Source: Saprospiraceae bacterium (GTDB taxonomy: Bacteria; Bacteroidota; Bacteroidia; Chitinophagales; Saprospiraceae). From it: 64,000 nucleotides of DNA. The stretch covers positions 1-64,000 of the forward strand of contig JALHQW010000040.1 of NCBI GenBank assembly GCA_022841745.1, given 5' to 3'. Below the pieces are notes generated by a model. That model worked only from the letters and a program-made list of their open reading frames with translations. It was not told the DNA's origin and made no database searches. Positions 49,348 to 52,091 of this stretch are shown in pieces; positions within the stretch are counted from its first letter, which is position 1; each line of letters opens with the position of its first letter. Made by a program: the position numbers and the translations under genes.

Positions 49348-49399
49348 TGGTTTTGAGGTTTTTTGAGGTTTTGGGGTTTTGGGGTTTTGGGGTTTTGGG
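49348..49399 (-). repeat. AAAACCCC/AAAACCTC repeat leader of the His-rich permease
   Basis: Read on the minus strand, five or more 8-base units AAAACCCC and AAAACCTC run up to eight bases before the start codon. A similar leader precedes the DUF4175 gene at 55600-55680. Confidence 0.6.
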
Positions 49400-49573
49400 C
49401 TGCGCTTGGCCAGTGGGCTGGCAGGTGGGCAAAGCTAAGGGGTTTTGGGGATTTTGGGAGCTTGGTGTATGGTTGGAGGGGCAGGTGTGGAAGTTTGGCC
49501 AAAGTTTCGGTTCTTTGCATTGGAACTTGGCCGCTGCGATTGGTGGTTTGTCCATTTAGAAACTTTGCATCGT

Positions 49574-50830
49574 ATGAAAATAGAAATACAAAACCTCGGC
49601 CCGATACATCATTTTGAGTTCGACTTGGAGAAGGACTTGCACTTGTTGTATGGGGAGAATAATGTGGGGAAGAGTTTTGCGGTGAATGTGATGTATTGTC
49701 TTGTCAAGGTTTTGCTAAAGGAAAGAAAGGGGCATGGAGAAGTGATTTTAGGCGAGGAAATGGAAGATTACTTAAACTTAGCAGAACGAATAATTAGACA
49801 TTCTTTGGAAAAAGAGATAATTTCAGATTTCCATGATGCACTTAAAAATACTTATGATATTTTAACTCCTATTATTCCAAAGTCAAAAAAACAGTCCGTA
49901 TTAATTATAGATACTCATGATTTTCATACCCGACTTGTATTAAATAATTCAGGTAGATTTGATATTGATTCGTTCCAGTTATCCAATAGTCTCAAGAAGA
50001 CTTTGGATATTGCCAAAAACTCAAGTGAGAGACAACTATCAGGTGAAATGTTTAGTTTGCACAATGTTTCAAATTATTTATTTTCAAACATTTTCTTATT
50101 GCCTGCATCACGCTCGGGTTTATACCCCCCATTAAGTGGCATGGGTGAAATTTTGGCTCAACTTTCACTTTTAAGAAACTCCCTAAAAGCAAATATCGAA
50201 TTGCCAGCCCTATCTGAATCTGTTTCGGATTATTTTTTAAACCTCGTTAGTATTAATGGAAAAGCATCACTAAATGAATTAATCAAGTTGGCAGAGAATA
50301 TTGAAAATACTGTATTGAAGGGTAAAATAAATTTTAATCAGCAAACCAAAAAGATTTATTTCAATCCCAATGGAGCAAATGAAAATATAAGCATTTCTCA
50401 AACCGCCTCAATGGTTTCTGAACTAGCTCCATTTGTGCTTTATCTTAAACACCTGTTCCCAGAGAGGTTTGTCCCATATTTACTCATCATCGAAGAGCCC
50501 GAAGCCCACCTCCACCCCAAAGTTCAGGTGCAGCTCATGGAAATCTTCGCAGAACTGACCAAGCACAACGTGAAGGTCATCCTTACCTCGCACAGCAATT
50601 ATATGTTCAACAAACTGAGCAATATGCTGCTCAAAAAAGAGATAGCGCCAGAGAAAGTAGGCGTCTATCACATGATAATGACAGAGAATGGCAGCGTCGT
50701 AGCGCCCGACATGCAGGCCACCACGCAGGGCATCGAAGACCATAACTTCGCCGACGTAGCCAAGGAACTGTACCAAGAGCGGCTCGAAACTTATGACCTG
50801 CTAAACGAAGACCCTGATGCTGCTAAATGA
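49574..50830 (+). CDS. AAA15/OLD-like ATPase, candidate defence component
   Basis: I start at ATG 49574 (418 residues, MKIEIQNLGPIHHFEF), the canonical opening of SMC/RecF-like AAA15/AAA21 ATPases. Walker A is GENNVGKS (27-34). The middle (about 50-290) is helical and poorly conserved, LPASRSGLYPP resembles the phrase after the insertion in such ATPases, and NENISISQTASMVSELAPF stands where the signature helix lies. Walker B is LLIIEEPEAHLHP with E307/E308, then VKVILTSHSNYMFNKL. No Toprim domain follows, unlike OLD nucleases. The coding sequence overlaps the next gene by 14 bp, so the two proteins surely work together. Composition changes from AT-rich to GC-rich near 50480. Confidence 0.82.
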   Translation: MKIEIQNLGPIHHFEFDLEKDLHLLYGENNVGKSFAVNVMYCLVKVLLKERKGHGEVILGEEMEDYLNLAERIIRHSLEKEIISDFHDALKNTYDILTPIIPKSKKQSVLIIDTHDFHTRLVLNNSGRFDIDSFQLSNSLKKTLDIAKNSSERQLSGEMFSLHNVSNYLFSNIFLLPASRSGLYPPLSGMGEILAQLSLLRNSLKANIELPALSESVSDYFLNLVSINGKASLNELIKLAENIENTVLKGKINFNQQTKKIYFNPNGANENISISQTASMVSELAPFVLYLKHLFPERFVPYLLIIEEPEAHLHPKVQVQLMEIFAELTKHNVKVILTSHSNYMFNKLSNMLLKKEIAPEKVGVYHMIMTENGSVVAPDMQATTQGIEDHNFADVAKELYQERLETYDLLNEDPDAAK

Positions 50831-51332
50831 CCTTAGAGCCGACGCCTCGCTCGCCCCATATATTCATCAATTCAGTTGCGAAAATGATGTTTGCGTGGAC
50901 TTTGACCCCGCCATTCCACAGGAGGACTATCTCGTTGTCAAAGTGGATGATTTTTATAATAAATTAGGTTTGCCGAACACGCCAAAATCACCAGATTGCT
51001 TAATCGTTCAACGTTGCATGGATGGGCGTTTTCATTGGCATGTAGTGGAATTAAAGAACGTCAAGTACCAAAGCGAACTTGATGCTGGGGACATTTGGGA
51101 CAAGTTTCATACCTGCTTGACCGATTTTATGAGCAACCGTTTTCGAAGCCATTTTTACAACGAAAACTATGATTTCAAGCTACGCTTGTATCTCGTAGCT
51201 GGTAAGGTAAATGACAATTTCACCAAGAACTTCAAGTTTGATTTTTTACTGGCTATGCGGCCATTGCAGTTTGCCAACAAGTTCTATGGCGTCAAACCCG
51301 AAAACCCCAATCCGCTCGTGCGTACCTGCTGA
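50817..51332 (+). CDS. Small PD-(D/E)xK-like protein partnered with the ATPase
   Basis: The 171-residue product is not a family I can name. It contains a pattern compatible with a PD-(D/E)xK nuclease core: PD at residues 59-60 (KSPDCLIVQ), then after a beta strand ELK at 78-80 (FHWHVVELKNVKY), followed by an amphipathic helix (LDAGDIWDKFHTCLTDFMSNRF) and a strand LRLYLVAGK. The first 40 residues (SCENDVCVDFDPAIPQEDYLVVKVDDFYNKL) are acidic. It starts inside the ATPase gene (14-bp overlap), which indicates coupling. An ATPase plus small nuclease pair is the layout of several two-gene anti-phage systems. Nuclease activity is inferred from the motif only. Confidence 0.6.
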   Translation: MLLNDLRADASLAPYIHQFSCENDVCVDFDPAIPQEDYLVVKVDDFYNKLGLPNTPKSPDCLIVQRCMDGRFHWHVVELKNVKYQSELDAGDIWDKFHTCLTDFMSNRFRSHFYNENYDFKLRLYLVAGKVNDNFTKNFKFDFLLAMRPLQFANKFYGVKPENPNPLVRTC

Positions 51333-51439
51333 AAGAATGACCACGCCAATAACGTTACCAACTTTGAAACCCGGCCTGAGGCAACGCTTAGATTTTGATT
51401 TCCACGGATAAATACCGAACTTCGCAAAAAATCATCCAC

Positions 51440-51688
51440 ATGGAAAATACAACCTTGGCGGGCGTGAAAACAACCCTCATCATCAAGCCTTCTGAATTGG
51501 AGTTTGTGCTGAACCTGTTGGGAGCGTTGAAATTGAAGGGCCTCATTGATTTTCAGGTAGAAAAAGAGCCGGACTTGGAGCCGCCCTTCCGCCAACTCAC
51601 CGCTACGGAACTCAATGCCATCGTCGAGCGGGCTGAAAACAGCAAGGACATCTCACTCGAAGCGTTCAAAGCAAAGCACCAACTATGA
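51440..51688 (+). CDS. Antitoxin of a type II toxin-antitoxin pair
   Basis: From ATG 51440 the product has 82 residues (MENTTLAGVKTTLIIKPSELEFVLNLLGALKLKGL..AKHQL). It resembles the short, charged antitoxins that precede RelE/ParE toxins in Bacteroidota: a beta strand at the start (KTTLIIKP), helices, and a C-terminal part (LTATELNAIVERAENSKDISLEAFKAKHQL) likely to wrap the toxin. No standard DNA-binding motif is obvious. The TGA stop overlaps the toxin ATG (ATGA), which supports the pairing. It lies 107 bases after the nuclease-like gene. Confidence 0.75.
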   Translation: MENTTLAGVKTTLIIKPSELEFVLNLLGALKLKGLIDFQVEKEPDLEPPFRQLTATELNAIVERAENSKDISLEAFKAKHQL

Positions 51689-52008
51689 TTATTGGTGGCA
51701 GGGAGGTCGTTATTAAGCAGCAGTTCGATGAAATGCTGGACGAAATGCTGGCTTGGTTCCTTTCTGAAGGACACGACCAATTTGCCCAAAAATTTGTGAG
51801 GGAACTCTACGACGCTATTGTTGAAAAAATCGCCCCAAATCCAGAACGCCATACGGAATACCCTTTCAAAAAAACAGCCGACAAGAGTTACCACCGTTTC
51901 ATTTTCCGCAAAAAATACTGCGTGATTTTCAAAGTCACACCCCTGAAATTGGAAATTCTCGCCATCGTTTATTCAAAACGGGATTTGAGCAAGCTGCCGA
52001 TTGAGTAA
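51685..52008 (+). CDS. RelE/ParE-family toxin
   Basis: This 107-residue protein shows the RelE/ParE fold order: a first helix pair (FDEMLDEMLAWFLSEGHDQFAQKFVRELYDAIVEKIAPNPERHTEYPF) followed by beta strands YHRFIFRKKYCVIFKVTPLKLEILAIVYSKRDLSKL. The basic strand FIFRKKYCVIFKV and the conserved YSKRD near the end are typical of Bacteroidota ParE-like toxins. Such toxins either cleave mRNA on the ribosome or inhibit gyrase; which applies here cannot be told. The gene is translationally coupled to its antitoxin by a 4-bp overlap. Confidence 0.85.
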   Translation: MIIGGREVVIKQQFDEMLDEMLAWFLSEGHDQFAQKFVRELYDAIVEKIAPNPERHTEYPFKKTADKSYHRFIFRKKYCVIFKVTPLKLEILAIVYSKRDLSKLPIE

Positions 52009-52016
52009 ACCATTTC

Positions 52017-52024
52017 TATTTTTG
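52017..52024 (+). promoter_or_regulatory. -7 element before the TMTC-like gene
   Basis: TATTTTTG matches TAnnTTTG; the -33 partner is poor (CTG at 18 bases). The start codon is 68 bases downstream. Confidence 0.3.
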
Positions 52025-52091
52025 CCCGGCCTCAATGCCATCAACCTCAATCACCGTCAACCGTAAGCCGTCAACCGTCCACCGATAAATC

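Follow-up and report, generated by a model that had tools for sequence, protein, structure and literature searches.

An OLD/AAA15-type ABC ATPase and a small putative PD-(D/E)xK nuclease are encoded by overlapping genes in the window (the whole stretch of 64,000 nucleotides of Saprospiraceae DNA analysed here, from a genome of 8.4 Mb in 178 contigs), and the two form a conserved unit. The pair and its relatives are best read as an uncatalogued branch of the class of systems that combine such an ATPase with a PD-(D/E)xK nuclease. Their role is probably that of a mobile two-gene phage-defence cassette, in which the ATPase would be the sensor and gate and the nuclease the effector. The family would add a mainly Bacteroidota branch to the ATPase-gated nucleases, a class of which WonAB is, in the literature cited, the member with a studied mode of action; its 34 sequences and their exact residues offer a basis for testing phage sensing by the ATPases and cutting by the nucleases.

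Layout of the locus

The features of the locus are listed in Table 1. The ORF positions, the protein lengths (418 and 171 aa), the 14-bp overlap, the residues D60, E78 and K80 and the 107-bp spacing were all as given in the first-pass annotation; the 107 bases lie between the stop of P0002 (51332) and the ATG of the antitoxin-like gene (51440). That annotation had taken the four genes for a candidate defence islet, and the pair for its best candidate for an undescribed system. Its nuclease and its conserved unit are retained below, whereas the membership of the toxin-antitoxin genes and the novelty of the layout are given up.

Table 1. Features of the ATPase-nuclease locus (positions are those of the window).
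Feature	Position	Strand	Basis
OLD/AAA15-type ABC ATPase P0001, 418 aa, without Toprim	49574..50830	+	ORF, Pfam, PADLOC, model
Small protein P0002 with predicted PD-(D/E)xK-like fold, 171 aa	50817..51332	+	ORF, conservation, model
14-bp overlap of the P0001 and P0002 frames	50817..50830	+	Frame positions, suggesting translational coupling
Antitoxin-like P0003, 82 aa, outside the ATPase-nuclease pair	51440..51688	+	ORF, locus searches
RelE/ParE-like toxin candidate P0004, 107 aa, outside the ATPase-nuclease pair	51685..52008	+	ORF, relatives
Lower-GC block, unaligned with congeners at both flanks; insertion and rearrangement	49354..52052	.	GC, congener alignment

The ATPase

P0001 matched the Pfam families AAA_15 (1.3e-21) and AAA_21 (2.1e-12), and Toprim was absent from the nine Pfam families listed for it at E<=1, in agreement with its initial description as an AAA15/OLD-like ATPase without a Toprim domain. 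Its best match in PADLOC was PD-T4-4_A (9e-27), followed by PDC-M47A (3.3e-25), HEC-02A and AriA; 119 PADLOC families were matched in all. The landmarks of the protein are Walker A K33, a conserved R180, Walker B E307/E308 and H340. Across 22 aligned ATPase rows G27, G32, K33, S34, P177, R180, S279, M280, E283, E307, E308, P309, E310, H340 and S341 were invariant, as expected for an ABC-type ATPase.

The predicted structure of P0001 (pLDDT 80, pTM 0.81) resembled Septu PtuA (8eea; Z 16.2, rmsd 4.0, 285 residues aligned) as well as retron PtuA, Rad50 and SMC heads, with Z of 14-16 for the PtuA, Rad50 and SMC matches. An OLD/AAA15-type ABC ATPase without Toprim is a defining component of systems of the WonAB, PD-T4-4 and PDC-M47 kind, and P0001 is such a protein.

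Fold and conserved residues of the small protein

No significant match to P0002 was found in Pfam, NCBIfam, PADLOC or the PDB sequences; the PDB search returned one chance match with the sequence (E 1) and none with the profile. No PADLOC model matched at E<=1, which upholds the earlier statement that P0002 is distinct from GajB, PtuB and AriB.

The predicted model of P0002 was confident (pLDDT 95.3, pTM 0.90). D60 stands before a strand at 61-66, E78 and K80 are on a strand at 72-81, and a helix follows at 90-108, the order of strands and helix expected of a PD-(D/E)xK core. Foldseek gave weak matches (best E 0.03, zero at E<=0.001; best E 1.1e-3 in the viral library). The 50 rows obtained with VIA-align were mostly PD-(D/E)xK enzymes, every one with Z below 8: the top row was Upx (Z 6.3, rmsd 4.2, 124 aligned), and HamA of Hachiman (Z 5.5, rmsd 4.1, 121 aligned), FokI (Z 5.3, rmsd 3.5, 119 aligned), Can2, Card1, Cfr10I, EndoMS and SgrAI were also present. 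The motif, the strand order and the match list thus agree on a PD-(D/E)xK fold, without a single strong match.

D60 and E78 were present in 34 of 34 family members, that of the window included, and K80 in 33, the remaining one having R; as judged from the aligned sequences, this conservation exceeds chance. On the model, a nuclease-like fold is assigned with high confidence. The reading of D60...E78-x-K80 as a PD-(D/E)xK nuclease, made before any search, is very probably right, given the conserved residues, the confident model and structural matches that are individually weak; structure prediction of 50817-51332 did not yield a fold devoid of a nuclease core, the outcome that had been named as counting against it. 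A small adjacent nuclease of this kind is also a defining component of the WonAB, PD-T4-4 and PDC-M47 class, and P0002 is predicted to be one.

P0002 has cysteines at positions 21, 61, 67 and 171. In the family, cysteines at columns 20, 61 (adjoining D60) and 67 and at the C-terminal 171 co-occur in 28 of the 34 nucleases; the nuclease of the window has S20, but C21, and one to four of these cysteines are lost in L047, L083, L084, L085 and L115. It is quite unlikely that the nucleases make up a separate family in which a cysteine switch or a metal site sets activity. If they did, the P0002 family would bring redox or metal gating into the class of ATPase-nuclease defence systems.

Conservation and distribution of the pair

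In genome_contigs 27 loci were found; four of these lie on the contigs that also yielded L010-L013. With L083-L085 from predicted viral contigs, L115-L117 from further genomes and the window, the family has 34 members. The ATPase gene was found directly upstream of the nuclease gene in 33 of the 34 loci (26 of the 27 in genome_contigs), the contig of the 34th (L028) starting at that point. The ATPase and the nuclease are therefore, with high confidence, a conserved two-gene unit, as had been supposed from the window. The ATPase frame is split in L026, L041 and L044 and truncated by the contig end in L021 and L029. In 21 intact pairs elsewhere the two frames either share as many as 29 bases or are separated by a gap of at most 12, with start codons chosen by the analyst.

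The closest named relatives of P0002 (L021, 76%; L022, 60%; L023, 47%) are Saprospiraceae/Bacteroidetes records. Bacteroidota account for 21 of the 27 loci, and one is unclassified; the other five are from Armatimonadetes, Aminicenantes, Lachnospiraceae and, in two cases, a single Deltaproteobacteria MAG, all of these non-Bacteroidota records being single MAG contigs for which misbinning is possible. Strong matches were obtained in 5 of the 396 genomes scanned from the order and in 4 of the 296 scanned from the phylum, the window's own genome being counted in both; in the order scan, 7 of 12 matches were discarded as chance (E >0.001, short, four with stops).

The ATPase and nuclease distances were correlated (Mantel r 0.78, 22 pairs, 0 of 5000 permutations), and shared descent may account for part of this correlation, possibly all of it. 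The dN/dS ratios for L030/L033 were 0.14 (nuclease) and 0.21 (ATPase). For the nucleases of the window and L021 the ratio was about 0.08 with dS 1.9, near saturation, and L039/L042 was saturated.

Searches with P0002 (tblastn) gave zero matches in plasmids and phages, and alignment A1 gave zero in viral_contigs; P0001 gave zero in plasmids and viral_contigs. With the ATPase alignment A3, 30 viral loci were retrieved, three of them belonging to the P0002 family.

Genomic context

The ATPase gene has a GC content of 38.5%, the nuclease gene one of 43.6% and the toxin-antitoxin genes one of 46.2%, as against 57.7% in the left and 55.2% in the right flank; across the pair it ranges from 33 to 49% in 500-base windows. 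In congeners the left neighbour was located in 12 and a close right neighbour in 11. On the left, homology with these extends no further than 49353, and on the right it resumes no earlier than 52053. None of P0001 to P0004 was found in these 23 congeneric loci (about 1.5 kb of flank each), and a search of four whole congener genomes for the nuclease gave zero matches. The left and right neighbours are on different contigs in 11 of 11 congeners, so rearrangement is involved; with the flanks rearranged, a clean empty site was not found among the 23 loci. The ATPase-nuclease pair bears signs of horizontal spread, namely its GC content, the gap in congeners, its presence in several phyla and its copies on predicted viral contigs.

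Six 16-nt copies of a repeat of the TTTTGGGG type occupy 49351-49458, marking both the left boundary of the lower-GC block and the end of congener homology.

To look for a recurring third gene, we scanned 150 of the 170 neighbour ORFs (15 were dropped as >720 aa or unreadable, and five short ones by choice). PADLOC matched 147 families at 1e-8, the commonest of those listed in 4 of the 150 neighbours; Pfam matched 227 families, the commonest in 3 of the 150, and those listed were largely housekeeping. Of 10 hand-picked neighbours one matched PADLOC at 1e-8, a type II methyltransferase that had been picked for its methyltransferase look. Occurrence of the pair solely beside conserved housekeeping neighbours, which the first-pass annotation had set against a defence role, was not found, no Pfam family being present in more than three of the 150.

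The mad3 (MADS ATPase) model was matched by 4 of the 150 neighbour ORFs of L021-L047, so some copies of the pair may adjoin other ATPases of this kind.

The toxin-antitoxin neighbour

P0003 and P0004 gave chance-level matches only in Pfam, NCBIfam and PADLOC, as did P0004 in the PDB. Their position, 107 bp beyond the nuclease gene, had been given correctly, but curated models do not support the RelE/ParE label then attached to them; a toxin-antitoxin pair at 51440-52008, with overlapping frames, is plausible. Of 198 order genomes searched, 19 (its own included) carry relatives of P0004 of about 100 aa. Each of the nine such loci examined has a small ORF immediately upstream, the C-terminus of which is, by eye, like that of P0003 in about five of the nine; phmmer with P0003 against these upstream ORFs gave zero matches.

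In the 27 other pair loci P0003 and P0004 were absent by tblastn, and by phmmer on 1543 ORFs. As a positive control, P0001 was found in 26 of these loci and P0002 in 27, and 25 of them carry at least 700 bases downstream. The toxin-antitoxin genes are a neighbour and not a component of the ATPase-nuclease unit, and their earlier inclusion in a defence islet is withdrawn.

Comparison with known systems

The layout cannot be called undescribed, since WonAB, 'OLD-ABC ATPase + Novel REase', PD-T4-4 and the PADLOC candidate pairs PDC-M47 and PDC-M29 are already of this kind. WonAB is a two-gene operon of an OLD-like ABC ATPase (unlike the Toprim-bearing OLD) and a small PD-(D/E)xK nuclease, and its authors place PD-T4-4 and an 'OLD-ABC ATPase + Novel REase' operon in the same group (PMC12137116). 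In that system, protection against ICP1 is lost in ATPase and nuclease mutants, the overproduced nuclease is toxic only alongside active ATPase, and simple sequestration was ruled out by the authors; genomic DNA stays intact, translation halts, and the authors suggest rRNA or tRNA as the target (PMC12137116). The window's pair is like WonAB (cholerae WASA) in the kind of both components. Set against the description of WonB in that paper, which gives about 16 kDa and K71, the nuclease of the window differs in having 171 aa and K80. The WonAB look-alikes among our loci, the PDC-M29-like pairs L103 and L107, lie outside the ATPase clade of the window family. The nuclease of L103 is 145 aa long and, like WonB, carries a lysine at 71, which is at most suggestive of a link between PDC-M29-like pairs and WonB.

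PDC-M47 (PDC-M47A and PDC-M47B) has the same layout, an ATPase with a small D...ExK protein directly downstream. PDC-M47B was matched by 2 of 28 family nucleases (best 9.7e-6) and not by that of the window at E<=1, and the ATPase tree puts the PDC-M47 ATPases and those of the window family in distinct, supported clades. PD-T4-4, a system with phage-defence data that came out of an E. coli functional selection (PMC9519451), is described as two genes with a PD-(D/E)xK partner (PMC12137116, PMC10952713). It is alike in these respects and in that PD-T4-4_A is the best PADLOC match of P0001. It differs in that the ATPase clade of the window family is apart from the PD-T4-4-like row L049; PD-T4-4_B was matched by 0 of 28 family nucleases at E<=1 and weakly by the viral relative L085 (0.0044).

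Septu PtuAB and retron PtuAB share the ATPase fold and the combination of an ATPase with a separate nuclease. PtuB is an HNH protein, whereas P0002 carries D...ExK and has neither a PtuB match in PADLOC (E<=1) nor an HNH family in Pfam. Gabija is set apart by the absence of Toprim and helicase families from P0001 and P0002 (Pfam, PADLOC), the GajA models covering just the ATPase part of P0001, and PARIS by the absence of an AriB match to P0002 among PADLOC models at E<=1. Weak library matches of the 28 nucleases, one each, were to SduA (2.6e-4), Cas11f (0.0069) and PDC-S05 (0.031); that to SduA is consistent with the superfamily and not with membership.

In hhalign comparisons the family gave probabilities of 2.6% with PDC-M47B, 2.8% with PD-T4-4_B-like, 0.2% with PDC-M29B-like, 45.0% with FPDGIF and 6.6% with L086 partners; the best of 53 controls reached 2.4%, so that one partner family is below and two are barely above it. 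The PDC-M29-like L103, L104 and L107 stood in for WonB, of which they are possible counterparts. All five partner families aligned across the ExK motif, at low probability (0.2-45%). In the ATPase tree the window family is one clade of 28 rows (support 100/98), and it stands next to a group that contains PDC-M47, the PD-T4-4-like L049, L086 and L051 (join 90/82 only); the tree is midpoint-rooted, with a program warning of long branches, and excludes the paralogues L002, L005 and L006 (no frame found) and L048 (split frame). A separate ATPase clade with the same layout points to the same kind of system, on a branch of its own. A search with narrow terms, confined to open-licence PMC papers, found no paper on this branch. 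PADLOC 2.0.0 has no match to the nuclease of the window and matches only a few of its relatives, and those weakly, so annotation with it misses the family.

Proposed function and alternatives

Phage defence is proposed as the role of the pair with moderate confidence; sensing, gating, target and abortive outcome are modelled, by analogy, on WonAB. The ABC ATPase would dimerise on ATP and serve as sensor and gate. The PD-(D/E)xK nuclease would be the effector, inactive or scarce as long as no phage infection is detected by the ATPase. The ATPase dimer would most likely sense infection, and license the nuclease, through a change driven by ATP. The licensed enzyme would then cut either DNA or, following the suggestion made for WonB, RNA, a target proposed with low confidence; cutting would stop the infection and probably arrest the host cell as well.

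Overlapping frames, a small effector, patchy spread and copies on predicted viral contigs would also suit an addiction module resembling toxin-antitoxin systems, with the nuclease as toxin and the ATPase as regulator, that mainly maintains itself or its carrier element. We consider this unlikely by analogy with WonAB, for which simple sequestration was ruled out by the authors and the nuclease was toxic only with active ATPase (PMC12137116). A Rad50/Mre11-type pair with a housekeeping role in repair or recombination seems very unlikely: the ATPase model does resemble Rad50 and SMC heads, and to much the same degree as PtuA, but the pair is rare and patchy in both genome scans (5 of 396 and 4 of 296, own genome counted), its GC is lower, and no Pfam family recurs in more than three of the 150 neighbours. 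That all four genes, toxin-antitoxin included, act as one defence islet is highly improbable; the 107-bp spacing, the common strand and the shared congener-unaligned block would fit it, but P0003 and P0004 are missing from the 27 other loci by both searches, and elsewhere the P0004 relatives adjoin small genes of their own.

Further ATPase and small-protein pairs

A further family of an ATPase with a small protein, the latter bearing FPD[GC]IF...E[LM]K, was seen on predicted viral contigs (L089, L091, L092, L094 and L095); two of its small proteins were scanned and had no PADLOC match at 0.01. L086 and L087 combine a PD-T4-4_A-like ATPase (2.9e-43 in L086) with a partner of 199-207 aa bearing SVDHVLL...IEMK, and the L086 partner had no PADLOC match at 0.01. 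Among the known partners (L049/L113 and L050/L114), the PD-T4-4_B member of G545 was weakly matched by the PDC-M47B model (5.6e-4), as was the PDC-M47B member of G651 by the PD-T4-4_B model (5.3e-4); given these reciprocal weak matches, PDC-M47B and PD-T4-4_B are probably related.
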